64,000 nucleotides of DNA from Closterium sp. Naga37s-1 (lineage: Eukaryota; Streptophyta; Zygnematophyceae; Desmidiales; Closteriaceae): assembly GCA_947471745.1 (NCBI GenBank), contig CANJKZ010000977.1:2460501-2524500 (forward strand), written 5' to 3'. The notes under the pieces are model-generated. The model was not told the DNA's origin, searched no databases, and saw only the letters and a program-made list of their open reading frames with translations. Of this stretch, positions 6,319-64,000 are shown in pieces (position 1 is the first letter of the stretch; each line of letters begins with the position of its first letter). The position numbers and the translations under genes are program-made.

Positions 6319-9300
6319 GGTAGGTCTATTGGCAGGTAGGTCTATTGGCGGTAGGTCTATTGGCAGATAGGTCTGTAGGTCTATTGGCAGGTAGGTCTAT
6401 TGGCAGGTAGGTCTATTGGCAGGTAGGTCTATTCGCAGCTAGGTCTATTGGCAGGTAGGTCCATTGGCAGGTAGGTCTATTGGCAGGTAGGTCTTTTGGC
6501 AGGTAGGTCTATTGGCAGGTAGGTCTATTGGCAGGTAGGTCTATTGGCAGGTAGGTCTATTGGCAGCTAGGTCTATTGGCAGGTAGGTCTATTGGCAGGT
6601 AGGTCTATTGGCAGGTAGGTCTATTGGCGGTAGGTCTATTGGCAGATAGGTCTGTAGGTCTATTGGCAGCTAGGTCTATTGGCAGGTAGGTCTATTGGCA
6701 GGTAGGTCTATTGGCAGGTAGGTCTATTCGCAGGTAGGTCTATTCGCAGGTAGGTCTATTGGCAGGTAGGTCTATTCGCAGGTAGGTATATTCGCAGGTA
6801 GGTCTATTCGCAGGTAGGTCCATTGGCAGATAGGTCTATTCGCAGGTAGGTCTATTCGCAGGTAGGTCTATGGGCAGATAGGTCTGTAGGTCTATTGGCA
6901 GGTAGGTCTATTGGCAGCTAGATCTATTGGCAGGTAGGTCTATTGGCAGGTAGGTCTATTGGCAGCTAGGTCTATTGGCAGGGAGGTCTATTGGCAGGTA
7001 GGTTTATTGGCAGGTAGGTCTATTGGCAGATAGGTCTGTAGGTCTATTGGCAGGTAGGTCTATTGGCAGGTAGGTCTATTGGCAGGTAGGTCTATTGGCA
7101 GATAGGTCTGTAGGTCTTTTGGCAGGTAGGTCTATTGGCAGGTAGGTCTATTGGCAGGTAGGTCTATTGGCAGGTAGGTCTATTGGCAGGTAGGTCTATT
7201 GGCAGGTAGGTCTATTGGCAGGTAGGTCTATTCGCAGGTAGGTCTATTCGCAGGTAGGTCTATTGGCAGATAGGTCTGTAGGTCTATTGGCAGGTAGGTC
7301 TATTGGCAGGTAGGTCTATTGGCAGGTAGGTCTATTGGCAGGTAGGTCTATTGGAAGGTAGGTCTATTGGCAGATAGGTCTGTAGGTCTATTGGCAGCTA
7401 GGTCTATTGGTAGGTAGGTCTTTTCGCAGGTAGGTCTATTCGCAGGTAGGTCTATTCGCAGGTAGGTCTATTGGCAGGTAGGTCTATTGGCAGGTAGGTC
7501 TATTGGCAGGTAGGTCTATTGGCAGGTAGGTCTATTGGCAGGTAGGTCTATTGGTAGGTCTTACTACCAAGCCAGCAAGGGCGTGGGAGGGTTGCGAGCA
7601 TCATCGGTCATCGGGGCTCGCGAATGAAGAGCGCCCGCTGCACTTCCTGCACATGTGCGGATCCTACCGCATTTTGGGGTGGAAGCGCTCGTTCCGAGCG
7701 TTTTTCTTCCTCCGTGTCACGTGGCTGCGCTTGTCTGGGCCTATTACCAATCCAGCAAGGGCGTGGGAGGGTTGCGAGCATCATCGGTCATCGGCGCTCG
7801 CGAATGAAGAGCGCCCGCTGCACTTCCTGCACATGTGCGGATCATTCCGCGTTTTGGGGGTGGAAGTGCTCGTTCCGAGCGTTTTTCTTCCGCCGTGTCA
7901 CGTGGCTACGCTTATCTGGTCCTATTACCAAGCCAGTAAGGGCGTGGGAGGGTTGCGAGCATCACCGGTCATCGGCGGTCGCGAATGAAGAGCGCCCGCT
8001 GCACTTCCTGCACACGTGAGGATCCTTCCGCATTTTGGGGCTAGAAGCGCTCGGTCCGAGCGTTTTTCTTCCGCCGGGTCACGTGGCTGCGCTTGTCTGG
8101 TCTTATTACCAAGCCAGCAACGGCGTGGGAGGGTTGCGAGCATCATCGGTCATCGGCGCTCGTGAATAAAGAGCGCCCGCTGCACTTCTTGCACATGTGC
8201 AGATCCTTCTGCGTTTTGGTGGTGGAAGCGCTCGTTCCGAACGTTTTTCTTCCGCTGGGTCACGTGGCTGCGCTTGTTTGGTCTTATTACCAAGCCAGCA
8301 AGGGCGTGGGAGGGTTGCGAGCAACATCGGTCATCGGCGCTCGCGAATGAAGAGCGCCCGCTGCACTTCCTGCACATGTGCGGATCATTCCGCGTTTTGG
8401 GGGTGGAAGCGCTCGTTCCGAGCGTTTTTCTTCCGCCGTGTCACGTGGCTGCGCTTGTCTGGGCCTATTACCAAGCCAGCAAGGGCGTGGGAGGGTTGCA
8501 AGCATCATCGGTCATTGGCGCTCGCGAATGAAGAGCGCCTGCTGCACATCCTGCACATGTGCGGATCCTTCCGCATTTTGGGGGTGGAAGCGCTCGTTCC
8601 GAGCGTTTTTCTTCCGCCAGGTCACGTGGCTGCGCTTGTCTTGTCCTATTACCAAGCCAGCAAGGGCGCGGGAGGGTTGCGATCATCATCGGTGATTGGC
8701 GCTCGCGAATGAAGAGCGCCCGCTGCACTTCCTGCACATGTGCGGATCCTTCCGCGTTTTGGGGCTGTAAGTGCTCGTTCCGCGCGGTTTACTTCCGCCG
8801 GGTCATGTGGCTGCGCTTGTCTGGGCCTATTACCAAGCCAGCAAGGGTGTGGGAGGGTTGCGAGCATCATCGGTCATCGGCGGTCGCGAATGAAGAGCGC
8901 CCGCTGCACTTCCTGCACATGTGCGGATCCTTCCGCGTTTTGGGGCTGTGAGCGCTCGTTCCGCGCGGTTTTCTTCCGCCGGGTCACGTGGCTGCGCTTG
9001 TCTGGGCCTATTACCAAGCAAGCAAGGGCGTGGAAGGGTTGCGAGCATCATTGGTCATCGGCGCTCGCGAATGAAGAGCGCCCGCTGCACTTCCTGCACA
9101 TGTGCGAATCCTTCCACATTTTGGGGGTGGAAGCGCTCGTTCCGAGCGTTTTTCTTCCGCCGGGTCACGTGGCTATGCTTATCTGGTCCTCTTACCAAGC
9201 CAGCAAGGGCGTGGGAGGGTTGCGATCATCATCGGTCATCGGCGCTCGCGAATGAAGAGCGCCCGCTGCACTTCCTGCACATGTGCGGATCCTTCCGCAT

Positions 9301-11000
9301 TTTGGGGTGGAAGCGCTCGTTCCGAGCGTTTTTCTTCCGCTGGGTCACGTGGCTGCACTTGTCTGGTCCTATTACCAAACCAGCAAGGGCGTGGGAGGGT
9401 TGCGAGCATCATCGGTCATCGGCGCTCGCGAATGAAGAGCGCCCGCTGCACTTCCTGCACATGTGCGGATCCTTCCGCGTTTTGGGGGTGGAAGCGCTCG
9501 TTCCGAGCATTTTTCTTCCGCCGGGTCACGTGGCTACGCTTGTCTGGGCCTATTACCAAGCCAGCAAGGGCGTGGGAGGGTTGGGAGCATCATCGGTCAT
9601 CGGCGCTCGCGAATGAAGAGCGCCCGCTGCACTTCATGCACATGTGCGGATCCTTCCGCGTTTTGGGGGTAGAAGCGCTCGTTCCGAGCGTTTTTCTTCC
9701 GCCAGGTCACGTGTCTGCGCTTGTCTGGTCCTATTACCAAGCCAGCAAGGGCGTGGGAGGGTTGCGAGCATCATCGGTCATCGGCGCTCGCGAATGAAGA
9801 GCGCCCGCTGCACTTCCTGCACATGTGCGGATCCTTCCGCGTTTTGGGGGTGGAAGCGCTCGTTCCGAGCGTTTTTCTTCCGCCGGGTCACGTGGCTGCA
9901 CTTGTCTGGTCCTATTACCAAACCAGCAAGGGCGTGGGAGGGTTGGGAGCATCATCAGTCATCGGCGCTCGCGAATGAAGAGCGCCCGCTGCACTTCTTG
10001 CACATGTGCGGATCCTTCCGCGTTTTGGTGGTGGAAGCGCTCGTTCAGAGCGATTTTCTTCCGCCGGGTCACGTGGCTGCGCTTGTCTGGGCCTATTACC
10101 AAGCCAGCAAGGGCGTGGGAGGGTTGCGAGCACCATCGGTCATCGGCGCTCGCGAATGAAGAGCGCCCGTTGCACTTCCTGCACATGTGCGGATCCTTCC
10201 GCGTTTTGGGGGAGGAAGCGCTTGTTCCGAGCGTTTTTCTTCCGCCGGGTCACGTGGCTGCGCTTGTCTGGGCCTATTACCAAGCTAGGAAGGGCGTGGG
10301 AGGGTTGCGAGCATCATTGGTCATCGGCGCTCGCGAATGAAGAGCGCCCGCTGCACTTCCTGCACATGTGCGGATCCTTCCGCGTTTTGGGGGTGGAAGC
10401 GCTCGTTCCGAGCGATTTTCTTCCGCCGGGTCACGTGGCTGCGCTTGTCTGGTCTTATTACCAAGCCAGCAAGGGCGTGGGAGCGTTGCGAGCATCATCG
10501 GTCATCGGCGCTCGCGAATGAAGAGCGCCCGCTGCACTTCCTGCACATGTGCGGATCCTTCCGCGTTTTGGGGGTGGAAGCGCTCGTTCCGAGCGTTTTT
10601 CTTCCGCCGGGTCACGTTGCTGCGCTTGTCTGGGCCTATTACCAAGCCAGCAAGGGCGTGGGAGGGTTGCGAGCATCATCGGTCATCGGCGCTCGCGAAT
10701 GAAGAGCGCCCGCTGCACTTCCTGCACATGTGCGGATCCTTCCGCGTTTTGGGGCTGTGAGCGCTCGTTTTCCGCGCAGTTTTTTTCCGCCGGGTCACAT
10801 GGCTGCGCTTGTCTGGGCCTATTACCAAGCCAGCAAGGGCGTGGGAGGGTTGCGAGAATCATCGGTCATCGGCGGTCGCGAATGAAGAGCGCCCGCTGCA
10901 CTTCCTGCACATGTGCGGATCCTTCCGCGTTTTGGGGGTGGAAGCGCTCGTTCTGAGCGTTTTTCTTCCGCCGGGTCACGTGGCTGCGCTTGTCTGGGCC

Positions 11001-11181
11001 TATTACCAAGCCAGCAAGGGCGTGGGAGGGTTGCGAGCATCATCGGTCATCGGCGCTCGCGAATGAAGAGCGCCCGCTGCACTTCCTGCACATGTGCGGA
11101 TCCTTCCGCGTTTTGGGGGTGGAAGCGCTCGTTCCGAGCGTTTTTCTTCCGCCGGGTCACGTGGCTGCGCTTGTCTGGTCT
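11001..11181 (+). repeat. Representative 181-bp unit with its dyads
   Basis: One typical unit. It contains five dyad-symmetric stretches: a 7-bp-stem hairpin (ggcgctc/gagcgcc, 9-base loop) at 11052-11074 with NruI-type TCGCGA at 11057; the perfect palindrome gcacatgtgc at 11088-11097; gcgga-tcct-tccgc at 11096-11109 including GGATCC; a 6-bp stem with 3-base loop, cgctcg-ttc-cgagcg, at 11126-11140; and the E-box palindrome CACGTG at 11158-11163. These elements are kept in most units of both arms. Such dyads could bind dimeric proteins or form hairpins; no function is shown by the sequence alone. Confidence 0.85.
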
Positions 11182-12299
11182 TATTACCAAGCCAGCAAGG
11201 GCGTGGGAGGGTTGCGAGCATCATCGGTCATCGGCGCTCGCGAATGAAGAGCGCCCGCTGCACTTCTTGCACATGTGCGGATCCTTCCGCGTTTTGGTGG
11301 TGGAAGCGCTTGTTCCGAACGTTTTTCTTCCGCCGGGTCACGTGGCTGCGCTTGTCTGGTCTTATTACCAAGCCAGCAAGGGCGTGGGAGCATTGCGAGC
11401 ATCATCGGTCATCGGCGCTCGCGAATGAAGAGCGCCCGCTGCACTTCCTGCACATGTGCGGATCCTTCCGCATTTTGGGGGTGGAAGCGCTCGTTACGAG
11501 CTTTTTTCTTCCGCCGGGTCACGTGGCTGCGCTTGTCTGGTCCTATTACCAAGCCAGCAAGGGCTTGGGAGGGTTGCGATCATCATCGGTCATCGGCGGT
11601 CGCGAATGAAGAGCGCCCGCTGCACTTCCTGCACATGTGCGGATCCTTCCGCATTTTGGGGCTGGAAGCGCTCGTTCCGAGCGTTTTTCTTCCGCCGGGT
11701 CACGTGGCTGCGCTTGTCTGGGCTTATTACCAAGCCAGCAAGGGCGTGGGAGGGTTGCGAGCATCATCGGTCATCGGCGCTCGCGAATGAAGAGCGCCCG
11801 CTGCACTTCCTGCACATGTGCGGATCCTTCCGCGTTTTGGGGGTGGAAGCGCTCGTTCCGAGCGTTTTTCTTCCGCCGGGTCACGTGGCTGCGCTTGTCT
11901 GGGCCTATTACCAAGCCAGCAAGGGCGTGGGAGGGTTGCGAGCATCATCGGTCACCGGCGGTCGCGAATGAAGAGCGCCCGCTGCACTTCCTGCACATGT
12001 GCGGATCCTTCCGCATTTTGGGGCTGGAAGCGCTCGTTCCGAGCGTTTTTCTTCCGCCGGGTCACGTGGCTGCGCTTGTCTGGTCTTACTACCAAGCCAG
12101 CAAGGGCGTGGGAGGGTTGCGAGCATCATCGGTCATCGGCGCTCGCGAATGAAGAGCGCCCGCTGCACTTCCTGTACATGTGCGGATCCTTCCGCGTTTT
12201 GGGGGTGGAAGCGCTCGTTCCGAGCGTTTTCTTCCGCCGTGTCACATGGCTGCGCTTGTCTGGGCCTATTACCAAGCCAGCAAGGGCGTGGGAGGGTTG

Positions 12300-13270
12300 C
12301 GAGCATCATCGGTCATCGGCGCTCGCGAATGAAGAGCGCCCGCTGCACTTCCTGCACATGTGCGGATCCTTCCGCATTTTTTGGGTGGAAGCGCTCGTTT
12401 CGAGCATTTTTCTTCCGTCGGGTCATGTGGCTGCGCTCGTTTGGGCCGAGTCCGCCGGGACACGTGGCTGCGCTTGTCTGGGCCTATTACCAAGCCAGCA
12501 AGGGCGTGGGAGGGTTGCGAGCATCATCGGTCATCGGCGCTCGCGAATGAAGAGCGCCTGCTGCACTTCTTGCACATGTGCGGATCCTACAGCGTTTTGG
12601 GGCTGGAAGCGCTCGTTCCGGGCGTTTTTCTTCCGTGGGGTCACCTTGCTACGCTAGCCTGGGCCTATTACCAAGCCAGCAAGGGCGTGGGAGGGTTGCG
12701 AGCATCATCGGTCATCGGCGCTCGCGAATGAAGAGCGCCCGCTGCACTTCCTGCACATGTGCGGATCCTTCCGCGTTTTGGGGGTGGAAGAGCTCGTTCT
12801 GAGCGTTTTTCTTCAGCTGGGTCACGTGGCTGCGCTTGTCTGGGCCTATTACCAAGCCAGCAAGGGCGTGGAAGGGTTGCGAGCATCATCGGTCATCGGC
12901 GCTCGCGAATGAAGAGCGCCCGCTGCACTTCCTGCACATGTGCGGATCATTCCGCGTTTTGGGGGTGGAAGCGCTCGTTCCGAGCGTTTTTCTTCCGCCG
13001 TGTCACATGGTTGCGCTTGTCTGGGCCTATTACCAAGCCAGCAAGGGCGTGGGAGGGTTGCGAGCATCATCGGTTATCGGCGCTCGCGAATGAAGAGCGC
13101 CCGCTGCACATCCTGCACATGTGCGGATCCTTCCGCATTTTGGGGGTGGAAGCGCTCGTTCCGAGCTTTTTTCTTCCGCCGGGTCACGTGGCTGCGCTTG
13201 TCTGGTCCTATTACCAAGCCAGCAAGGGCGTGGGAGGGTTGCGATCATCATCGTTGATTGGCGCTCGCGA
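12300..13270 (+). repeat. Higher-order copy in the plus arm (copy 1)
   Basis: Five to six consecutive units, including the 218-bp variant and the distinctive following unit (atcctacagcg at about 12585), recur in the same order 5,322 bp downstream. Boundaries are approximate. Confidence 0.75.
12431..12467 (+). repeat. 37-bp internal duplication making a 218-bp satellite unit (copy 1)
   Basis: The tail of the unit (gctgcgct..gtttgggc, then a diverged ccgccgg-cacgtgg) is duplicated, so this unit is 218 bp instead of 181. The same insertion occurs at +2,390 and again +2,932 further, marking higher-order copies. Confidence 0.85.
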
Positions 13271-14820
13271 ATGAAGAGCGCCCGCTGCACTTCCTGCACA
13301 TGTGCGGATCCTTCCGCGTTTTGGGGGTGGAAGCGCTCGTTCCGAGCGTTTTTCTTCCGCCGTGTCACGTGGCTGCGCTTGTCTGGGCCTATTACCAAGC
13401 CAGCAAGGGCGTGGGAGGGTTGCGAGCATCATCGGTTATCGGCGCTCGCGAATGAAGAGCGCCCGCTGCACATCCTGCACATGTGCGGATCCTTCCGCAT
13501 TTTGGGGGTGGAAGCGCTCGTTCCAAGCTTTTTTCTTCCGCCGGGTCCCGTGGCTGCGCTTGTCTGGTCCTATTACCAAGCCAGCAAGGGCTTGGGAGGG
13601 TTGCGATCATCATCGTTGATTGGCGCTCGCGAATGAAGAGCGCCCGCTGCACTTCCTGCACATGTGCGGATCCTTCCGCGTTTTGGGGGTGGAAGCGCTC
13701 GTTCCGAGCGTTTTTCTTCCGCCGGGTCACGTGGCTGCGCTTGCCTGGGCCTATTACCAAGCCAGCAAGGGCGTGGGAGGGTTGCGAGCATCATCGGTCA
13801 TCGGCGGTCGCGAATGAAGAGCGCCCGCTGCACTTCCTGCACATGTGCGGATCCTTCCGCATTTTGGGGCTGGAAGCGCTCGTTCCGAGCGTTTTTCTTC
13901 CGCCGGGTCACGTGGCTGCGCTTGTCTGGGCTTATTACCAAGCCAGCAAGGGCGTGGGAGGGTTGCGAGCATCATCGGTCATCGGCGCTCGCGAATGAAG
14001 AGCGCCCGCTGCACTTCCTGCACATGTGCGGATCCTTCCGCGTTTTGGGGGTGGTAGCGCTCGTTTCGAGCGTTTTTCTTCCGCCGGGTCACGTGGCTGC
14101 GCTTGTCTGGGCCTATTACCAAGCCAGCAAGGGCGTGGGAGGGTTGCGAGCATCATCGGTCATCGGCAGTCGCGAATGAAGAGCGCCCGCTGCACTTCCT
14201 GCACATGTGCGGATCCTTCCGCATTTTGGGGCTGGAAGCGCTCGTTCCGAGCGTTTTTCTTCCGCCGGGTCACGTGGCTGCGCTTGTCTGGGCTTATTAC
14301 CAAGCCAGCAAGGGCGTGGGAGGGTTGCGAGCATCATCGGTCATCGGCGCTCGCGAATGAAGAGCGCCCGCTGCACTTCCTGCACATGTGCGGATCCTTC
14401 CGCGTTTTGGGGGTGGAAGCGCTCGTTCCGAGCGTTTTTATTCCGCCGGGTCACGTGGCTGCGCTTGTCTGGTCTTACTACCAAGCCAGCAAGGGCGTGG
14501 GAGGGTTGCGAGCATCATCGGTCATCGGCGCTCGCGAATGAAGAGCGCCCGCTGCACTTCCTGCACATGTGCGGATCCTTCCGCGTTTTGGGGGTGGAAG
14601 CGCTCGTTCCGAGCGTTTTTCTTCCGCCGTGTCACGTGGCTGAGCTTGTCTGGGCCTATTACCAAGCCAGCAAGGGCGTGGGAGGATTGCGAGCATCATC
14701 GGTCATCGGCGCTCGCGAATGAAGAGCGCCCGCTGCACTTCCTGCACATGTGCGGATCCTTCCGCATTTTTTGGGTGGAAGCGCTCGTTTCGAGCATTTT
14801 TCTTCCGTCGGGTCATGTGG

Positions 14821-14857
14821 CTGCGCTCGTTTGGGCCGAGTCCGCCGGGACACGTGG
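14821..14857 (+). repeat. 37-bp internal duplication making a 218-bp satellite unit (copy 2)
   Basis: Same 37-bp insertion as at 12431. Spacing of 2,390 bp equals one 218-bp unit plus twelve 181-bp units, so the three variants descend from one event spread by block duplication. Confidence 0.85.
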
Positions 14858-17621
14858 CTGCGCTTGTCTGGGCCTATTACCAAGCCAGCAAGGGCGTGGG
14901 AGGGTTGCGAGCATCATCGGTCATCGGCGCTCGCGAATGAAGAGCGCCCGCTGCACTTCCTGCACATGTGCGGATCATTCCGCGTTTTGGGGGTGGAAGC
15001 GCTCGTTCCGAGCGTTTTTCTTCCGCCGTGTCACGTGGTTGCGCTTGTCTGGGCCTATTCCCAAGCCAGCAAGGGCGTGGGAGGGTTGCGAGCATCATCG
15101 GTTATCGGCGCTCGCGAATGAAGAGCGCCCGCTGCACATCCTGCACATGTGCGGATCCTTCCGCATTTTGGGGGTGGAAGCGCTCGTTCCGAGCTTTTTT
15201 CTTCCGCCGGGTCACGTGGCTGCGCTTGTCTGGTCCTATTACAAAGCCAGCAAGGGCGTGGGAGCGTTGCGAGCATCATCGGTCATCGGCGGTCGCGAAT
15301 GAAGAGCGCCCGCTGCACTTCCTGCACATGTGCGGATCATTCCGCGTTTTGGGGGTGGAAGCGCTCGTTCCAAGCGTTTTTCTTCCGCCGTGTCACGTGG
15401 CTGCGCTTGTCTGGGCCTATTACCAAGCCAGCAAGGGCGTGGGAGGGTTGCGAGCATCATCGGTTATCGGCGCTCGCGAATGAAGAGCGCCCGCTGCACA
15501 TCCTGCACATGTGCGGATCCTTCCGCATTTTGGGGGTGGAAGCGCTCGTTCCGAGCTTTTTTCTTCCGCCGGGTCACGTGGCTGCGCTTGTCTGGTCCTA
15601 TTACCAAGCCAGCAAGGGCTTGGGAGGGTTGCGATCATCATCGTTGATTGGCGCTCGCGAATGAAGAGCGCCCGCTGCACTTCCTGCACATGTGCGGATC
15701 CTTCCGCGTTTTGGGGCTGTAAGCGCTCGTTCCGCGCGGTTTTCTTCCGCCTGGTTATGTGGCTGCGCTTGTCTGGGCCTATTACCAAGCCAGCAATGAC
15801 GTGGGAGGGTTGCGAGCATCATCGGTCATCGGCGCTCGCGAATGAAGAGCGCCCGCTGCACTTCCTGCACATGTGCGGATCCTTCCGCGTTTTGGGGGTG
15901 GAAGCGCTCGTTCCGAGCGTTTTTCTTCTGCCGGGTCACGTGGCTGCGCTTGTCTGGGCCTATTACCAAGCCAGCAAGGGCGTGGAGGGTTGCGAGCATC
16001 ATCGGTCATCGGCGCTCGCGAATGAAGAGCGCCCGCTGCACTTCCTGCACATGTGCGGATCCTTCCGCGTTTTGGGGGTGGAAGCGCTCGTTCCGAGCGT
16101 TTTTCTTCCGCCGGGTCACGTGGCTGCGCTTGTCTGGGCCTATTACCAAGCCAGCAAGGGCGTGGGAGGGTTGCGAGCATCATCGGTCATCAGCGGTCGC
16201 GAATGAAGAGCGCCCGCTGCACTTCCTGCACATGTGCGGATCCTTCCGCATTTTGGGGCTGGAAGCGCTCGTTCCGAGCGTTTTTCTTCCACCGGGTCAC
16301 GTGGCTGCACTTGTCTGGGCCTATTACCAAGCCAGCAAGGGCGTGGGAGGGTTGCGAGCATCATCGGTCATCGGCGCTCGCGAATGAAGAGCGCCCGCTG
16401 CACTTCCTGCACATGTGCGGATCCTTCCGCGTTTTGGGGGTGGAAGCGCTCGTTCCGAGCGTTTTTCTTCCGCCGGGTCACGTTGCTGCGCTTGTCTGGG
16501 CCTATTACCAAGCCAGCAAGGGCGTGGGAGGGTTGCGAGCATCATCGGTCATCGGCGGTCGCGAATGAAGAGCGCCCGCTGCACTTCCTGCACATGTGCG
16601 GATCCTTCCGCATTTTGGGGCTGGAAGCGCTCGTTCCGAGCGTTTTTCTTCCGCCGGGTCACGTGGCTGCGCTTGTCTGGGCTTATTACCAAGCCAGCAA
16701 GGGCGTGGGAGGGTTGCGAGCATCATCGGTCATCGGCGCTCGCGAATGAAGAGCGCCCGCTGCACTTCCTGCACATGTGCGGATCCTTCCGCGTTTTGGG
16801 GGTGGAAGCGCTCGTTCCGAGAGTTTTTCTTCCGCCGGGTCACGTGGCTGCGCTTGTCTGGGCCTATTACCACGCCAGCAAGGGCGTGGGAGGGTTGCGA
16901 GCATCATCGGTCATCGGCGCTCGCGAATGAAGAGCGCCCGCTGCACTTCCTGCACATGTGCGGATCCTTCCGCGTTTTGGGGGTGGAAGCGCTCGTTCCG
17001 AGCGTTTTTCTTCCGCCGGGTCACGTGGCTGCGCTTGTCTGGGCCTATTACCAAGCCAGCAAGGGCGTGGGAGGGTTGCGAGCATCATCGGTCATCAGCG
17101 GTCGCGAATGAAGAGCGCCCGCTGCACTTCCTGCACATGTGCGGATCCTTCCGCGTTTTGGGGGTGGAAGCGCTCGTTCCGAGCGTTTTTCTTCCGCCGG
17201 GTAACGTGGCTGCGCTTGTCTGGGCCTATTACCAAGCCAGCAAGGGCGTGGGAGGGTTGCGAGCATCATCGGTCATCGGCGCTCGCGAATGAAGAGCGCC
17301 CGCTGCACTTCCTGCACATGTGCGGATCCTTCCGCGTTTTGGGGGTGGAAGCGCTCGTTCCGAGCGTTTTTATTCCGCCGGGTCACGTGGCTGCGCTTGT
17401 CTGGTCTTACTACCAAGCCAGCAAGGGCGTGGGAGGGTTGCGAGCATCATCGGTCATCGGCGCTCGCGAATGAAGAGCGCCCGCTGCACTTCCTGCACAT
17501 GTGCGGATCCTTCCGCGTTTTGGGGGTGGAAGCGCTCGTTCCGAGCGTTTTTCTTCCGCCGTGTCACGTGGCTGCGCTTGTCTGGTCCTATTACCAAGCC
17601 AGAAAGGGCGTGGGAGGGTTG

Positions 17622-18592
17622 CGAGCATCATCGGTCATCGGCGCTCGCGAATGAAGAGCGCCCGCTGCACTTCCTGCACATGTGCGGATCCTTCCGCATT
17701 TTTTGGGTGGAAGCGCTCGTTTCGAGCATTTTTCTTCCGTCGGGTCATGTGGCTGCGCTCGTTTGGGCCGAGTCCGCCGGGACACGTGGCTGCGCTTGTC
17801 TGGGCCTATTACCAAGCCAGCAAGGGCGTGGGAGGGTTGCGAGCATCATCGGTCATCGGCGCTCGCGAATGAAGAGCGCCTGCTGCACTTCTTGCACATG
17901 TGCGGATCCTACAGCGTTTTGGGGCTGGAAGCGCTCGTTCCGGGCGTTTTTCTTCCGTGGGGTCACCTTGCTGCGCTTGCCTGGGCCTATTACCAAGCCA
18001 GCAAGGGCGTGGGAGGGTTGCGAGCATCATCGGTCATCGGCGCTCGCGAATGAAGAGCGCCCGCTGCACTTCCTGCACATGTGCGGATCCTTCCGCGTTT
18101 TGGGGGTGGAAGCGCTCGTTCTGAGCGTTTTTCTTCAGCTGGGTCACGTGGCTGCGCTTTTCTGGGCCTATTACCAAGCCAGCAAGGGCGTGGAAGGGTT
18201 GCGAGCACCATCGGTCATCGGCGCTCGCGAATGAAGAGCGCCCGCTGCACTTCCTGCACATGTGCGGATCATTCCGCGTTTTGGGGGGGGAAGCGCTCGT
18301 TCCGAGCGTTTTTCTTCCGCCGTGTCACGTGGTTGCGCTTGTCTGGGCCTATTACCAAGCCAGCAAGGGCGTGGGAGGGTTGCGAGCATCATCGGTTATC
18401 GGCGCTCGCGAATGAAGAGCGCCCGCTGCACATCCTGCACATGTGCGGATCCTTCCGCATTTTGGGGGTGGAAGCGCTCGTTCCGAGCTCTTTTCTTCCG
18501 CCGGGTCACGTGGCTGCGCTTGTCTGGTCCTATTACCAAGCCAGCAAGGGCGTGGGAGGGTTGCGATCATCATCGTTGATTGGCGCTCGCGA
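17622..18592 (+). repeat. Higher-order copy in the plus arm (copy 2)
   Basis: Matches 12300-13270 at offset 5,322 with few differences. The unit after 18600 then switches to a variant (ggggctgtaagcg) otherwise seen near 15717, so its downstream end joins a different history. Confidence 0.75.
17753..17789 (+). repeat. 37-bp internal duplication making a 218-bp satellite unit (copy 3)
   Basis: Same insertion again. Spacing of 2,932 bp from copy 2 equals 218 plus one 180-bp unit (near 15985) plus fourteen 181-bp units. The sequence that follows it matches that after copy 1, not copy 2. Confidence 0.85.
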
Positions 18593-19653
18593 ATGAAGAG
18601 CGCCCGCTGCACTTCCTGCACATGTGCGGATCCTTCCGCGTTTTGGGGCTGTAAGCGCTCGTTCCGCGCGGTTTTCTTCCGCCAGGTCACGTGGCTGCGC
18701 TTGTCTGGGCCTATTACCAAGCCAGCAAGGGCGTGGGAGGGTTGCGAGCATCATCGGTCATCGGCGCTCGCGAATGAAGAGCGCCCGCTGCACTTCCTGC
18801 ACATGTGCGGATCCTTCCGCGTTTTGGTGGTGGAAGCGCTCGTTCCGAGCGTTTTTCTTCCGCCGGGTCACGTGGCTGCACTTGTCTGGTCTTATTACCA
18901 AGCCAGCAAGGGCGTGGGAGGGTTGCGAGCATCATCGGTCATCGGCGCTCGCGAATGAAGAGCGCCCGCTGCACTTCTTGCACATGTGCGGATCCTTCCG
19001 CGTTTTGGTGGTGGAAGTGCTAGTTCCGAACGTTTTTCTTCCGCCGGATCACGTGGCTGCGCTTGTCTGGTCTTATTACCAAGCCAGCAAGGGCGTGGGA
19101 GCGTTGCGAGCATCATCGGTCATCGGCGCTCGCGAATGAAGAGCGCCCGCTGCACTTCCTGCACATGTGCGGATCCTTCCGCGTTTTGGGGGTGGAAGCG
19201 CTCGTTCCGAGCGTTTTTCTTCCGCCGGGTCATGTGGCTGCGCTTGTCTGGGCCTATTACCAATCCAGCAAGGGCGTGGGAGGGTTGCGAGCATCATCGG
19301 TCATCGGCGCTCGCGAATGAAGAGCGCCCGCTGCACTTCATGCACATGTGCGGATCCTTCCGCGTTTTTGGGGTAGAAGCGCTCGTTCCGAGCGTTTTTC
19401 TTCCGCTGGGTCACGTGGCTGCGTTTATCTGGTCTTATTACCGAGCTAGCAAGGGCGTGGGAGGGTTACGAGCATCATCGGTCATCGGCGCTCACGAATG
19501 AAGAGCGCCCGCTGCACTTCCTGCACATGGGGGTGGAAGCGCTCGTTCCGAGCGTTTTTCTTCCGCTGGGTAACGTGGCTGCGCTTGTCTGGTCATATTA
19601 CCAAGCCAGCAAGGGCGTGGGAGGGTTGTGAGCATCATCGGTCATCCGCGCTT

Positions 19654-19695
19654 GCGAATGAAGAGCGCCCGCTGCACTTCCCGCTCTTCATTCGC
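19654..19695. repeat. Palindromic inversion junction of the 181-bp satellite
   Basis: The plus-oriented array stops at 19681 and the reverse complement of the same satellite starts at 19682 with no other DNA between. The breakpoints leave a perfect 14-bp inverted repeat (gcgaatgaagagcg at 19654-19667, its complement at 19682-19695) around a 14-base centre. Beyond the stem the two arms remain complementary, with mismatches, for as long as the arms last, so this is the centre of a palindrome of about 12 kb. The unit just before it is shortened by 21 bp (160 bp, from 19436), and units near the junction are more diverged than average. It could be a true inversion or a fold-back or assembly chimera. 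Confidence 0.93.
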
Positions 19696-19861
19696 GACCG
19701 CCAATGACCGATGATGCTCGCAACCCTCCCACGCCCTTGCTGGATTGGTAATAGGCACAGACAAGCGCAGCCACGTGACCCTGCGGAAGAAAAACGCTCG
19801 GAACGAGCGTTTCCACCCCGAAAACGCGGAAGGATCCGCACATGTGCAGGAAGTGCAGCGG

Positions 19862-21930
19862 GCGCTCTTCATTCGCGAGCGCCGATGACCGATGATGCTC
19901 GCAACCCTCCCACGCCCTTGCTGGCTTGGTAATAGGCCCAGACAAGCGCAGCCACGTGACCCGACGGAAGAAAAACGCTCGGAACGGTCGCTTCCAGCCC
20001 CAAAACGCGGAAGGATCCGCACATGTGCAGGAAGTGGAGCGGGCGCTCTTCATTCACGAGCGCCGATGACCGATAATGCTCACAACCCTCCCACGCCCTT
20101 GCTGGATTGGTAATAGGCCCAGACAAGCGCAGCCACGTGACCCTGCGGAAGAAAAACGCTCGGAACGAGCGCTTCCACCCCCAAAACGCGGAAGGATCCG
20201 CACATGTGCAGGAAGTGCAGCGGGCGCTCTTCATTCGAGAGCGCCGATGACCGATGATGCTCGCAACCCTCCCACGCCCTTGCTGGCGTGGTAATAGGCC
20301 CAGACAAGCGCAGCCACGTGACCCGGCGGAAGAAAAACTCTCGGAACGAGCGCTTCCACCCCCAAAACGCGGAAGGATCCGCACATGTGCAGGAAGTGCA
20401 GCGGGCGCTCTTCATTCGCGAGCGCCGATGACCGATGATGCTCGCAACCCTCCCACGCCCTTGCTGGCTTGGAAATAGGCCCAGACAAGCGCAGCCACGT
20501 GACCCGGCGGAAGAAAAACGCTCGGAACGAGCGCTTCCAGCCCCAAAACGCGGAAGGATCCGTCCATGTGCAGGAAGTGCAGCGGACGCTCTTCATTCGC
20601 GAGCGCCGATGACCGATGATGCTCGCAACCCTCCCACGCCCTTGCTGGCTTGGTAATAGGACCAGACAAGCGCAGCCACGTGACCCGGCGGAAGAAAAAC
20701 GCTCGGAACGAACGCTTCCAGCCCCAAAACGCGGAAGGATCCGCGCATGTGCAGGAAGTGCAGCGGGCGCTCTTCATTCGCGAGCGCCGATGACCGATGA
20801 TGCTCGCAACCCTCCCACGCCCTTGCTGGCTTGGTAATAGGCCCAGACAAGCGCAGCCACGTGACCCGGCTGAAGAAAAACGCTCGGAACGAGAGCTTCC
20901 ACCCCCAAAACGCGGAAGGATCCGCACATGTGCAGGAAGTGCAGCGGGCGCTCTTCATTCGTGAGCGCCGATGACCGATGATGCTCGCAACCCTCCCACG
21001 CCATTGCTGGCGTGCTAATAGGCCCAGATAAGTGCAGCCACGTAACCCGGCGGAAGAAAAATGCTCGGAACAAGCGCTTCCACCCCCAAAACGCGGAAGG
21101 ATCCGCACATGTGCAGGAAGTGCAGCGGGCGCTCTTCATTCGCGAGCGCCGATGACCGATGATGCTCGCAACCCTCCCACGCCCTTGCTCGCTTGGTAAT
21201 AGGCCCAGACAAGCGCAGCCACATGACCCGGCGGAAGAAAAACGCTCGGAACAAGCGCTTCCACCCCGAAAACGCGGAAGGATCCGCACATGTGCAGGAA
21301 GTGCAGCGGGCTCTCTTCATTCGCGAGCGCCGATGACCGATGATGCTCGCAACCCTCCCACGCCCTTGATGGCTTGGTAATAGGCCCAGACAAGCGCAGC
21401 CACATGACCCGGCGGAAGAAAAACGCTCGGAACAAGCGCTTCCACCCCGAAAACGCGGAAGGATCCGCACATGTGCAGGAAGTGCAGCGGGCGCTCTTCA
21501 TTCGTGAGCGCCGATGACCGATGATGCTCGCAACCCTCCCACGCCCTTGATGGCTTGGTAATAGGCCCAGACAAGCGCAGCCACGTGACCCGGCGGAAGA
21601 AAAACGCTCGGAACGAGCGCTTCCACCCCCAAAACGCGGAAGGATCCGCACATGTGCAGGAAGTGCAGCGGGCGCTCTTCATTCGCGAGCGCCGATGACC
21701 GATGATGCTCGCAACCCTCCCACGCCCTTGCTGGCTTGGTAATAGGCCCAGACAAGCACAGCCACGTGACCCGGCGGAAGAAAAACGCTCGGAATGAGCG
21801 CTTCCAGCCCCAAAACGCGGAAGGATCCCCACATGTGCAGGAAGTGCAGCGGGCACTCTTCATTCGCGAGCGCCGATGACCGATGATGCTCGCAACCCTC
21901 CCACGCCTTTGCTGGCTTGGTAATAGGCCC
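19862..21930 (-). repeat. Thirteen-unit-spaced duplication in the inverted arm, copy 1
   Basis: About 2.07 kb that recurs at exactly +2,353 bp (13 x 181) with roughly five visible differences (for example ttcattcgtgagcg at 21499 against cgcgagcg in copy 2, and ggctgaag at 20868 against ggcggaag). Shared private variants include aaaactctcggaac and ggtcgcttccagcc. Such similarity is far above that between neighbouring units, so this block duplication is recent. Confidence 0.85.
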
Positions 21931-22214
21931 AGACAAGCGCAGCCAAGTGACACGGCGGAAGAAAAACGCTCGGAACGAGCGCTTCCACCCCCAAAATGCG
22001 GAAGGATCCGCACATGTGCAGGAAGTGCAGCGGGCGCTCTTCATTCGCGAGCGCCGATGATCGATGATGCTCGCAACCCTCCCACGCCCTTGCTGGCTTG
22101 GTAATAGGCCCAGACAAGCGCAGCCAAGTGACACGGCGGAAGAAAAACGCTCGGAACGAGCGCTTCCACCACCAAAACGCGGAAGGATCCGCACATGTGC
22201 AGGAAGTGCAGCGG

Positions 22215-24283
22215 GCGCTCTTCATTCGCGAGCGCCGATGACCGATGATGCTCGCAACCCTCCCACGCCCTTGCTGGCTTGGTAATAGGCCCAGACAAGC
22301 GCAGCCACGTGACCCGACGGAAGAAAAACGCTCGGAACGGTCGCTTCCAGCCCCAAAACGCGGAAGGATCCGCACATGTGCAGGAAGTGGAGCGGGCGCT
22401 CTTCATTCACGAGCGCCGATGACCGATAATGCTCACAACCCTCCCACGCCCTTGCTGGATTGGTAATAGGCCCAGACAAGCGCAGCCACGTGACCCTGCG
22501 GAAGAAAAACGCTCGGAACGAGCGCTTCCACCCCCAAAACGCGGAAGGATCCGCACATGTGCAGGAAGTGCAGCGGGCGCTCTTCATTCGAGAGCGCCGA
22601 TGACCGATGATGCTCGCAACCCTCCCACGCCCTTGCTGGCGTGGTAATAGGCCCAGACAAGCGCAGCCACGTGACCCGGCGGAAGAAAAACTCTCGGAAC
22701 GAGCGCTTCCACCCCCAAAACGCGGAAGGATCCGCACTTGTGCAGGAAGTGCAGCGGGCGCTCTTCATTCGCGAGCGCCGATGACCGATGATGCTCGCAA
22801 CCCTCCCACGCCCTTGCTGGCTTGGAAATAGGCCCAGACAAGCGCAGCCACGTGACCCGGCGGAAGAAAAACGCTCGGAACGAGCGCTTCCAGCCCCAAA
22901 ACGCGGAAGGATCCGTCCATGTGCAGGAAGTGCAGCGGACGCTCTTCATTCGCGAGCGCCGATGACCGATGATGCTCGCAACCCTCCCACGCCCTTGCTG
23001 GCTTGGTAATAGGACCAGACAAGCGCAGCCACGTGACCCGGCGGAAGAAAAACGCTCGGAACGAACGCTTCCAGCCCCAAAACGCGGAAGGATCCGCGCA
23101 TGTGCAGGAAGTGCAGCGGGCGCTCTTCATTCGCGAGCGCCGATGACCGATGATGCTCGCAACCCTCCCACGCCCTTGCTGGCTTGGTAATAGGCCCAGA
23201 CAAGCGCAGCCACGTGACCCGGCGGAAGAAAAACGCTCGGAACGAGAGCTTCCACCCCCAAAACGCGGAAGGATCCGCACATGTGCAGGAAGTGCAGCGG
23301 GCGCTCTTCATTCGTGAGCGCCGATGACCGATGATGCTCGCAACCCTCCCACGCCATTGCTGGCGTGCTAATAGGCCCAGATAAGTGCAGCCACGTAACC
23401 CGGCGGAAGAAAAATGCTCGGAACAAGCGCTTCCACCCCCAAAACGCGGAAGGATCCGCACATGTGCAGGAAGTGCAGCGGGCGCTCTTCATTCGCGAGC
23501 GCCGATGACCGATGATGCTCGCAACCCTCCCACGCCCTTGCTCGCTTGGTAATAGGCCCAGACAAGCGCAGCCACATGACCCGGCGGAAGAAAAACGCTC
23601 GGAACAAGCGCTTCCACCCCGAAAACGCGGAAGGATCCGCACATGTGCAGGAAGTGCAGCGGGCTCTCTTCATTCGCGAGCGCCGATGACCGATGATGCT
23701 CGCAACCCTCCCACGCCCTTGATGGCTTGGTAATAGGCCCAGACAAGCGCAGCCACATGACCCGGCGGAAGAAAAACGCTCGGAACAAGCGCTTCCACCC
23801 CGAAAACGCGGAAGGATCCGCACATGTGCAGGAAGTGCAGCGGGCGCTCTTCATTCGCGAGCGCCGATGACCGATGATGCTCGCAACCCTCCCACGCCCT
23901 TGATGGCTTGGTAATAGGCCCAGACAAGCGCAGCCACGTGACCCGGCGGAAGAAAAACGCTCGGAACGAGCGCTTCCACCCCCAAAACGCGGAAGGATCC
24001 GCACATGTGCAGGAAGTGCAGCGGGCGCTCTTCATTCGCGAGCGCCGATGACCGATGATGCTCGCAACCCTCCCACGCCCTTGCTGGCTTGGTAATAGGC
24101 CCAGACAAGCACAGCCACGTGACCCGGCGGAAGAAAAACGCTCGGAATGAGCGCTTCCAGCCCCAAAACGCGGAAGGATCCCCACATGTGCAGGAAGTGC
24201 AGCGGGCACTCTTCATTCGCGAGCGCCGATGACCGATGATGCTCGCAACCCTCCCACGCCTTTGCTGGCTTGGTAATAGGCCC
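22215..24283 (-). repeat. Thirteen-unit-spaced duplication in the inverted arm, copy 2
   Basis: Second copy of 19862-21930. It ends near 24283, where copy 1 continues with agccaagtgacacgg and this one with agccacgtgacccgg. One private change is cacttgtgc at 22735 in place of the usual palindromic cacatgtgc. Confidence 0.85.
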
Positions 24284-25873
24284 ATACAAGCGCAGCCACG
24301 TGACCCGGCGGAAGAAAAACGCTCGGAACGAGCGTTTCCACCCCCAAAACGCGGAAGGATCCGCACATGTGCAGGAAGTGCAGCGGGCACTCTTCATTCG
24401 CGAGCGCAGATGACCGATGATGCTCGCAACCCTCCCACGCCCTTGCTGGCTTGGTAATAGGCCCAGACAAGCGCAGCCACGTGACCCGGCGGAAGAAAAA
24501 CGCTCGGAACGAGCGCTTCCAGGCCCAAAACGCGGAAGGATCCGCACATGTGCAGGAAGCGCAGCGGGCACTCTTCATTCGCGAGCGCCAACGACCGATG
24601 ATGCTATCGACCCTCCCACTCCCTTGCTGGCTTGGTAATAGGCCCAGACAAACGCAGCCACGTGACCCGGCGGAAGAAAAACGCTCGGAATGAGCGCTTC
24701 CACCCCCAAAACGCGGAAGTATCCGCACATGTGCAGGAAGTGCAGCGGGCGCTCTTCATTCGCGAGCACCGACGACAGATGATTCTAGCGACCCTCCCAC
24801 GCCCTTGCTGGCTTGGTAATAGGCCCAGACAAGCGCAGCCACGTGACCCGGCGGAAGAAAAACGCTCGGAACGAGCGCTTCCAGCCCCAAAACGCGGAAG
24901 GATCCGCACATGTGCAGGAAGTGCAGCGGGCGCTCTTCATTCGCGAGCGCAGATGACCGATGATGCTCGCAACCCTCCCACGCCCTTGCTGGCTTGGTAA
25001 TAGGCCCAGACAAGCGCAGCCACGTGACCCGGCGGAAGAAAAACGCTCGGAACGAGCGCTTCCACCCCCAAAACGCGGAAGGATCCGCACATGTGCAGGA
25101 AGTGCAGCGGGCGCTCTTCATTCGCGAGCGCCGATGACTGATGATGCTCGCAACCCTCCCACGCCCCGGCGGAAGAAAAACGCTCGGAACGAGCGCTTCC
25201 AGCCCCAAAACGCGGAAGGACGCACATGTGCAGGAAGTGCAGCGGGCGCTCTTCATTCGCGAGCGCCGATGACCGACGATGCTCGCAACCCTCCCACGCC
25301 CTTGCTGGCTTGGTAATAGGACCAGAAAAGTGCAGCCACGTGACCCGGCGGAAAAAAAACGCTCGGAACGAGCGCTTCCACCCCCAAAACGCGGAAGGAT
25401 CCGCACATGTGCAGGAAGTGCAGCGGGCGCTCTTCATTCGCGAGCGCCGATGACCGATGATGCTCGCAACCCTCCCACGCCCTTGCTGGCTTGGTAATAG
25501 GCTCAGACAAGCACAGCCACGTGACCCGTGGAAGAAAAACAATCAGAACGAGCGCTTCCACCCCCAAAACGCGGAAGGATCCGCACATGTGCATGAAGTG
25601 CAGCAGGCGCTCTTCATTCGCGAGCGCCGATGACCGATGATGCTCGCAACCCTCTCACGCCCTTGCTGGCTTGGTAATAGGCCCATACAAGTGCAGCCAC
25701 TTGACCTGGCGGAAGAAAAACGCTCGGAACGAGCGCTTCCACCCTCAAAACGCGGAAGGATCCGCACATGTGCAGAAAGTGCAGCGGGCGCTCTTCATTT
25801 GCGAGGGCCGATGACCAATGATGCTCGCAACCCTCCCACGCCCTTGCTGGCTTGGTAATAGGCCCATACAAGC

Positions 25874-60648: not shown

Positions 60649-60720
60649 CTATTTGGTCCACGCGCGCGACCTGGTTCACGCGCGCGACACGGGGAGCACG
60701 GGGAACAAGAAACCCGAAAC
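60649..60720. repeat. GC-rich edge with an 18-bp direct duplication
   Basis: Between the last 16-bp unit and the gene's 3' flank. cacgcgcgcgac occurs twice 18 bp apart (about 60659 and 60677), followed by cggggagcacggggaaca and gaaacccgaaaccc, each internally repetitive. No gene seen. Confidence 0.7.
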
Positions 60721-60843: not shown

Positions 60844-60848
60844 TTACA
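60844..60848 (-). promoter_or_regulatory. Possible polyadenylation signal TGTAA (proximal)
   Basis: TGTAA on the minus strand about 220 bases past the stop. TGTAA is the usual polyadenylation signal in chlamydomonadalean green algae. A 5-base motif is weak evidence on its own. Confidence 0.3.
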
Positions 60849-61065: not shown

Positions 61066-61695
61066 TCAGCCAAGCATCTTTGCCCGTGCGAACAGCACTC
61101 CTGCAAAGCACCCTGCGGAAGGAGAGAGAGGAGCAGGAAGGGAGGTGGTGGGTGGGTGAGATGATACAGGGTGATGTGAAGAAGGTACAAGATAGCGATG
61201 CCGTGTGGAGTGAAGCGCAGCCAGCAGTCCTGTGGTTTTTGTTGCGAAATAGAACGGCAATGTGTTCACTCCGTGAAAGAGTGGCTAGTATAGTAGCCAA
61301 GAGTTTTAGTCGAGTGAGGGGGAGTGGCTAGGTGAAGATAGCGCCTTCTCCCTACGGGGGGTTGGTTTCCTCCGGGGATCTCCTTAAAGCCCAAAAAAAA
61401 AAAAAAAAAAAAAAAAAAATAGGTGAAGATAGCAATTAGAGTGCAGGCCTAGTGGGTCCCGCACCGAAGAGGATGGAGAGGAGGGGGGTTGAACGGGACT
61501 GGAGAGGATAGAGGGGAAGGTGGGGGTGGACGCACTGACGAGGATAGAGAGAGGGATGGAGAGGGGAGTGGGAATGCAGTGCAAGTGGGGCACGCACCGA
61601 AGAGGATGGAGGAGATGTTGGCAGCGTTGGTGGGCGCTTTGAAGAGAATGATGCCGAAGAGGGAGAGTGGGATCTTGTTCAGCGACCCCACCAGA
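61066..61695 (-). CDS. GDP-mannose/nucleotide-sugar transporter, GONST1-like, C-terminal two exons (partial)
   Basis: The last two exons of a split gene. Exon 61598-61695 (98 nt; its first base completes a split codon) encodes LVGSLNKIPLSLFGIILF, then KAPTNAANISSILF. Exon 61066-61112 adds CFAGVLFARAKMLG and a TGA stop, a glycine codon being split across the junction. The acceptors are cccctggcag and, after a long pyrimidine tract, ccttccgcag; the donor is ttcg|gtgcgtg. Known for the family: GDP-sugar carriers of the Golgi (drug/metabolite transporter superfamily) exchange GDP-mannose for GMP, and the GALNK motif (GSLNK in plants) contacts the nucleotide sugar. Plant GONST1 ends in a very similar SLVGSLNKIPLS...SILFG..AGV.FARAKM. 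The match to remembered sequences is strong, but substrate is inferred. Upstream exons (the preceding segment usually reads WFLHQTGATTY) are not in the window. No breaks are visible in the part seen; whether the gene is intact cannot be judged. Confidence 0.86.
61329..61433 (+). mobile_element. Short retroposed insert with poly(A) tail and 14-bp target-site duplication
   Basis: taggtgaagatagc occurs at 61329-61342 and again at 61420-61433. Between them lie a 50-bp body (61343-61392, starting gccttctccctacgggg and ending ccttaaagccc) and an uninterrupted run of 27 A (61393-61419). Perfect duplications of this length flanking a poly(A)-ended insert are the hallmark of target-primed reverse transcription by a LINE-type enzyme. 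The body is too short to classify: a 5'-truncated SINE or LINE end, or a cDNA fragment. It lies in the transporter intron in antisense orientation and looks young because both duplications and the tail are unbroken. Confidence 0.85.
61441..61478 (-). repeat. Duplicated copy of the exon end and splice donor
   Basis: This segment matches 61574-61611 at 32 of 38 positions, with 19 in a row identical (cgcaccgaagaggatggag at 61460 and 61593). The second location is the 3' end of the penultimate coding exon with its donor. So the intron holds a decoy donor, tcttcg|gtgcggg, 133 bp downstream of the real one. The frame from the exon stays open up to it, but 133 is not a multiple of 3, so using it would put the last exon out of frame. 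Confidence 0.72.
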
Positions 61696-61886
61696 CTGCC
61701 AGGGGCGATGATGGGCACACGGGTCGGCATTGGAGCCACGGGGTTGTGGGGCCAAAGGTTTGCAGGGAACAATGTGGGAGGGAGAAAATTTAGGGATTTT
61801 GGGGTTCGGGTGAAAGGATGGCATTGATGTGGAGGTGATGGCAAGAGTGCAGCACGTGGAATATGGGCGCTCTGTGTACTGTGCAC

Positions 61887-62024
61887 GTGCACCTGTAGGT
61901 GGTGCACCTGTAGGTGGTGCACCTGTAGCTGGTGCACCTGTAGGTGGTGCACCTGTAGGTGGTGCACCTGTAGGTGGTGCACCTGTAGGTGGTGCACCTG
62001 TAGGTGGTGTACCTGTAGGTGGTG
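61887..62024. repeat. 15-bp minisatellite, nine copies
   Basis: Nine copies of gtgcacctgtaggtg with two variants (gtagctg near 61928, gtgtacc near 62009). Because 15 is a multiple of 3 the frames stay open: the minus strand reads a Pro-Thr-Gly-Ala-Pro repeat and the plus strand a Gly-Ala-Pro-Val-Gly repeat. I see no support for either being translated. It shares the core cctgtaggtggtg with the 19-bp array and is probably its relative. Confidence 0.93.
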
Positions 62025-62101
62025 GGGGGACCACAAGCAGATGGCACCTGTAGCAAGCTGTGCAGTGCGTGCTGTGCAGTGCGTGCTGTGCAAGGGATAT
62101 C
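62025..62101. repeat. Spacer with a 14-bp repeat between the two minisatellites
   Basis: Contains about 2.5 tandem copies of ctgtgcagtgcgtg (62059-62092) flanked by short unique DNA with one isolated cacctgtag remnant at 62045. Nothing else is seen. Confidence 0.8.
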
Positions 62102-64000
62102 TACCTGTAGGTGGAGGGCGTACCTGTAGGTGGAGGGCGTACCTGTAGGTGGTGGGCGTACCTGTAGGTGGTGGGCGTACCTGTAGGTGGTGGGCGTACC
62201 TGTAGGTGGTGGGCGTACCTGTAGGTGGTGGGCGTACCTGTAGGTGGTGGGCGTACCTGTAGGTGGTGGGCGTACCTGTAGGTGGTGGGCGTACCTGTAG
62301 GTGGTGGGCGTACCTGTAGGTGGTGGGCGTACCTGTAGGTGGTGGGCGTACCTGTAGGTGGTGGGCGTACCTGTAGGTGTGGGCGTACCTGTAGGTGGTG
62401 GGCGTACCTGTAGGTGGTGGGCGTACCTGTAGGTGGTGGGCGTACCTGTAGGTGGTGGGCGTACCTGTAGGTGGTGGGCGTACCTGTAGGTGGTGGGCGT
62501 ACCTGTAGGTGGTGGGCGTACCTGTAGGTGGTGGGCGTACCTGTAGGTGGTGGGCGTACCTGTAGGTGGTGGGCGTACCTGTAGGTGGTGGGCGTACCTG
62601 TAGGGTGGCGTAGGGGGCGTACCTGTAGGTGGTGGGCGTACCTGTAGGTGGTGGGCGTACCTGTAGGTGGTGGGCGTACCTGTAGGTGGTGGGCGTACCT
62701 GTAGGTGGTGGGCGTACCTGTAGGTGGTGGGCGTACCTGTAGGTGGTGGGCGTACCTGTAGGTGGTGGGCGTACCTGTAGGTGGTGGGCGTACCTGTAGG
62801 TGGTGGGCGTACCTGTAGGTGGTGGGCGTACCTGTAGGTGGTGGGCGTACCTGTAGGTGGTGGGCGTACCTGTAGGTGGTGGGCGTACCTGTAGGTGGTG
62901 GGCGTACCTGTAGGTGGTGGGCGTACCTGTAGGTGGTGGGCGTACCTGTAGGTGGTGGGCGTACCTGTAGGTGGTGGGCGTACCTGTAGGTGGTGGGCGT
63001 ACCTGTAGGTGGTGGGCGTACCTGTAGGTGGTGGGCGTACCTGTAGGTGGTGGGCGTACCTGTAGGTGGTGGGCGTACCTGTAGGTGGTGGGCGTACCTG
63101 TAGGTGGTGGGCGTACCTGTAGGTGGTGGGCGTACCTGTAGGTGGTGGGCGTACCTGTAGGTGGTGGGCGTACCTGTAGGTGGTGGGCGTACCTGTAGGT
63201 GGTGGGCGTACCTGTAGGTGGTGGGCGTACCTGTAGGTGGTGGGCGTACCTGTAGGTGGTGGGGCGTACCTGTAGGTGGTGGGCGTACCTGTAGGTGGTG
63301 GGCGTACCTGTAGGTGGTGGGGCCGTACCTGTACGGTGGGGGGCGTACCTGTAGGTGGTGGGCGTACCTGTAGGTGGTGGGCGTACCTGTAGGTGGTGGG
63401 CGTACCTGAGGTGTGGGCGTACCTGTAGGTGGTGGGCGTACCTGTAGGTGGTGGGCGTACCTGTAGGTGGTGGGGGTGGCGTACCTGTAGGTGGGTGGGC
63501 GTACCTGTAGGGTGGGCGTACCTGTAGGTGGTGGCGTACCTGTAGGTGGTGGCCGTACCTGTAGGTGGTGGGGCGTACCTGTAGGTGGTGGGCGTACCTG
63601 TAGGTGGTGGGCGTACCTGTAGGTGGTGGGCGTACCTGTAGGTGGTGGGCGTACCTGTAGGTGGTGGGCGTACCTGTAGGTGGTGGGCGTACCTGTAGGT
63701 GGTGGGCGTACCTGTAGGTGGTGGGCGTACCTGTAGGTGGTGGGGCGTACCTGTAGGTGGGGGCGTACCTGTATGTGGTGGCGTACCTGTAGGTGGTGGG
63801 CGTACCTGTAGGTGGTGGGCGTACCTGTAGGTGGTGGGCGTACCTGTAGGTGGTGGGCGTACCTGTAGGTGGTGGGCGTACCTGTAGGTGGTGGGCGTAC
63901 CTGTAGGTGGTGGGCGTACCTGTAGGTGGTGGGCGTACCTGTAGGTGGTGGGCGTACCTGTAGGTGGTGGGCGTACCTGTAGGTGGTGGGCGTACCTGTA
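62102..64000. repeat. 19-bp minisatellite array
   Basis: About 100 copies of tacctgtaggtggtgggcg, continuing past the window end. The first two copies read gtggaggg in place of gtggtggg; most of the rest are identical. Length-variant units cluster near 62612-62630, 63322-63345, 63408-63420, 63470-63550 and 63740-63785. On the minus strand each unit reads ctacag|gtacgcccaccac, a joined acceptor-like and donor-like motif. No coding potential is seen. Confidence 0.96.

Follow-up and report, generated by a model that had tools for sequence, protein, structure and literature searches.

The 3' end of a probable GDP-sugar transporter gene between tandem-repeat arrays

Results

The window, by which we mean the whole stretch of 64,000 nucleotides analysed, holds near its right end two minus-strand coding exons (Table 1) that together encode a 48-aa peptide: SLVGSLNKIPLSLFGIILFKAPTNAANISSILFG followed across the splice junction by CFAGVLFARAKMLG, in full SLVGSLNKIPLSLFGIILFKAPTNAANISSILFGCFAGVLFARAKMLG and then the stop codon TGA. 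The penultimate coding exon (hereafter exon 1) starts with T at 61695, the AG of the preceding intron's acceptor (...CCCCTGGCAG) occupying the two bases before it, and the first residue of the peptide, written S, is not certain because its codon is completed by the upstream exon. The donor of the last intron is TCTTCG/GTGCGTGC (the slash marks the exon boundary) and the intron's 3' end is TCTCTCCTTCCGCAG, giving a GT...AG span of GTGCGTGC...CTTCCGCAG. The initial annotation, which had read this two-exon gene end without tools as minus-strand segments 485 bp apart, joined at GT-AG sites in the correct phase, is correct to the base (61695–61598 and 61112–61066; phase 1). Its remark that neither segment forms an obvious long open frame is not quite right for exon 1, which falls inside a stop-free frame of 849 aa (61449–63998), solely owing to the adjacent 19-bp array, which lacks stop codons on the minus strand; as a real protein this open frame through the array was rejected, the array being simply stop-free.

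Table 1. Features at the transporter locus, in window coordinates
Feature	Coordinates	Strand	Remarks
16-bp satellite array	25872–60648	.	Past the gene's 3' end; unit GTAGGTCTATTGGCAG
Second TGTAA	60748	-	After the stop codon
TGTAA, possible poly(A) signal	60844–60848	-	About 220 bp past the stop codon; weak, five bases being frequent by chance
Last coding exon	61066–61112	-	End of TM10, tail FARAKMLG, stop TGA
Last intron	61113–61597	-	485 bp, GTGCGT...CCGCAG, phase 1
Penultimate coding exon	61598–61695	-	TM9 with GSLNK, start of TM10
Preceding intron, visible part	61696–64000	-	Acceptor CCCCTGGCAG read directly; holds both minisatellites
15-bp array	61887–62024	.	9 copies; in the preceding intron
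19-bp array	62102–64000	.	About 100 copies; in the preceding intron, continues off the window

The right edge of the window cuts the gene, leaving 48 codons, that is TM9, TM10 and a short tail; the upstream exons and the start codon are outside. Transporters of the Vrg4/GONST clade have ten transmembrane helices and a (F/Y)YNN motif on TM7, and in a complete gene TM7 and its FYNN-like motif would be encoded past that edge. The preceding intron is therefore seen in part and measures at least 2.3 kb. Third codon positions of the coding part are GC-rich (GC3 of 0.755, versus a G+C content of 0.53 in the intron).

When searched with phmmer against all PDB sequences, the 48-aa peptide significantly matched two entries, 5OGE (E = 1.6e-7) and 9S35 (E = 9.4e-7), the next match being noise (E = 1.4). 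Both are fungal Golgi GDP-mannose transporters, so that no other kind of SLC35 or TPT protein stands among the significant matches, and both alignments run ungapped over 46 residues spanning the splice junction. The homology of the joined peptide to GDP-sugar transporters, as the initial annotation had proposed for this 3' end, is thus strongly supported. For the joined peptide, alignment to the 5OGE stretch gave 40.1 bits and to that of 9S35 37.5, compared with 30.2 and 29.1 bits for exon 1 alone, 28.8 and 27.5 for the unspliced reading, and 12.3 and 12.5 for the best among 5000 shuffles; the gain from splicing over exon 1 alone is about 8 to 10 bits. While exon 2 (14 aa) is too short for a score of its own, its acceptor could be ranked by translating from every AG in the window, 10,650 over the two strands, in the phase needed and comparing each outcome with the last 13 residues of both transporters. 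The acceptor at 61112 comes first (score 29), and the runner-up (23) is satellite repeat. With the 9S35 stretch as query, tblastn over the whole window found one place above noise, the transporter exons (E = 2.6e-8). NCBIfam returned one weak match, below the cut-off, to the C-terminal end of the nucleotide-sugar transporter model TIGR00803, and a Pfam scan of the peptide, a fragment too short for it, gave no match. Among prokaryote genome contigs and viral contigs no relative was confirmed, and phage records yielded one chance match by tblastn (E = 3).

The peptide carries the motif GX(L/V)NK as GSLNK (61688–61674, minus strand) at the start of TM9. Predictions of GDP-sugar transport for the plant GONST clade rely on this motif (PMC7980081). 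Vrg4 has it as GALNK on TM9, where its lysine is important in recognising the sugar, TM9 being among the gating helices (PMC13342644). From the motif and its placement in Vrg4 it follows that the visible protein comprises TM9, TM10 and the short tail.

The gene stops close to a large satellite: the 16-bp array ends about 418 bp past the last base of the stop codon, in agreement with the roughly 420 bp given previously. If the transcript ended directly behind the first TGTAA (60844), roughly 190 bp would separate it from this array. Within the array, variant blocks of 24 bp keep recurring, often at a spacing of about 296 bp, which suggests higher-order repeats, and at its edge an 18-bp motif, TGGTCCACGCGCGCGACC, stands twice in tandem (60654–60688). 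The 181-bp satellite (about 7557–25872) displays an orientation flip at 19681/19682, inside an otherwise one-way 16-bp array. Searches for the 16-bp satellite in viral contigs, for Rfam families at the gathering threshold and for tRNAs by tRNA scan found none; miRNA/sRNA matches on the 15-bp array, weak and far below gathering scores, were rejected as repeat artefacts.

Both introns contain repeated sequence. A second copy of the end of exon 1 with its donor lies 133 nt inside the last intron, with 25 of 27 bases matching (within 61446–61612; the alignment scores 44, and none of 500 shuffles exceeds 33). Splicing at this second donor copy, whose GT is at 61464–61463, would change the reading frame and give the protein a different tail; a weaker copy is seen near 61545. 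The same intron harbours, at 61329–61433, a 77-bp insertion (a 50-bp body plus A27) lying antisense to the gene between 14-bp direct repeats, TAGGTGAAGATAGC. An A-tail between direct repeats is a hallmark of retroposons, and the insertion is probably a short one. In the preceding intron, the sense-strand units of the 19-bp and 15-bp arrays are GTACGCCCACCACCTACAG and GTGCACCACCTACAG, respectively. Every unit of either array has GT at its start and CAG at its end on the gene's sense strand, and the two arrays are probably related, since they share a common core (CCACCTACAGGT, minus strand).

Discussion

Taken together, the PDB matches, the splice junction and the motif make it very probable that the locus is the 3' end of a nuclear transporter gene whose product works in the Golgi, carries a GDP-sugar, probably GDP-mannose, and falls in the Vrg4/GONST clade of the NST/TPT (SLC35-like) superfamily; its source is most likely a green alga. 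Judging by its relatives, the protein would swap cytosolic GDP-mannose, or another GDP-sugar, for luminal GMP across the Golgi membrane; the gene itself, for an ordinary housekeeping-type carrier of a known kind, may be complete and expressed. It keeps a short last intron and, before it, a long one where minisatellites have expanded, and the 35-kb satellite starts shortly past its 3' UTR.

That two unrelated stretches joined by accident where there is no gene might be argued from the shortness of the visible peptide and the empty Pfam scan, but the chance of this is negligible: 46 residues align ungapped through the junction at E = 1.6e-7 and the acceptor at 61112 outranks all the others of the 10,650, which in practice refutes it. 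Better placed, while still improbable, is a gene fragment or pseudogene, its last exons copied or left behind as the repeats expanded and its upstream exons missing or broken. The 48 visible codons do lie between two repeat blocks, the long array on the upstream side leaves the window, and the last intron has its donor in duplicate as well as an insertion resembling a retroposon; against this stand an unbroken frame, two canonical splice sites, the retained motif and a coding-like GC3, and repeats and insertions are common in the introns of intact genes.

The lineage of this transporter gene is a matter of hints, none of them decisive: the GC3 of 0.755, the repeat-filled introns and two TGTAA pentamers within 430 bp after the stop codon. 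To these we add the C-terminal end, the part of the protein seen here, which we take to be identical to Arabidopsis GONST1 at 33 of 46 positions, a lead rather than a test; on this comparison the tail FARAKM and VGSLNKIPLS agree better with GONST1 than with the fungal proteins (22/46). The initial annotation's 'green lineage' likewise appears to draw on GONST1. Vrg4-like transporters are widespread among eukaryotes, and the gene could belong to a eukaryote outside the green lineage, for example a stramenopile or haptophyte. We consider this unlikely, though the least so of the alternatives, given the apparently closer resemblance to GONST1 and the TGTAA signals after the stop, TGTAA being the main Chlamydomonas signal (PMC3439250). 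The GONST1-like tail, the GC-rich third positions and these signals make a green-lineage, GONST1-like type plausible.

The setting was called unusual for such a carrier, which overstates the case. In Chlamydomonas and Volvox, introns have the highest tandem-repeat density, especially near intron ends (PMC3887541), and Drosophila has working genes whose introns are filled with satellite (PMC6508621); the setting is therefore not exceptional. The window may serve as a further example of a gene that has tandem repeats on its flanks and filling its intron, in what is probably an alga, and it holds a gene in a region that an annotation might otherwise show as nothing but repeat. The second donor copy in the last intron, along with the donor-like starts and acceptor-like ends of the array units, invites the idea that the arrays grew from splice-junction sequence, introns expanding by tandem splice-junction duplication into many interchangeable sites. 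Such an origin is speculation and very improbable: the opposite strand of the 19-bp array carries AGGT about as often (95 against 100), so the AG/GT pattern of the units is not strong evidence.

Among known systems, those closest to this gene end include two fungal GDP-mannose transporters, Vrg4 of the yeast Golgi (PDB 5OGE) and the protein of PDB 9S35: TM9–TM10 align gaplessly over 46 residues, with 22 identical to each, GxLNK stands at the same place, and the protein ends soon after TM10. It differs from both in having GSLNK where they have GALNK, in the tail FARAKMLG in place of YAVAKQ, and in a coding sequence that is split by introns. With Arabidopsis GONST1 and GONST2, Golgi GDP-sugar transporters, it shares the clade-marking GX(L/V)NK motif (PMC7980081).
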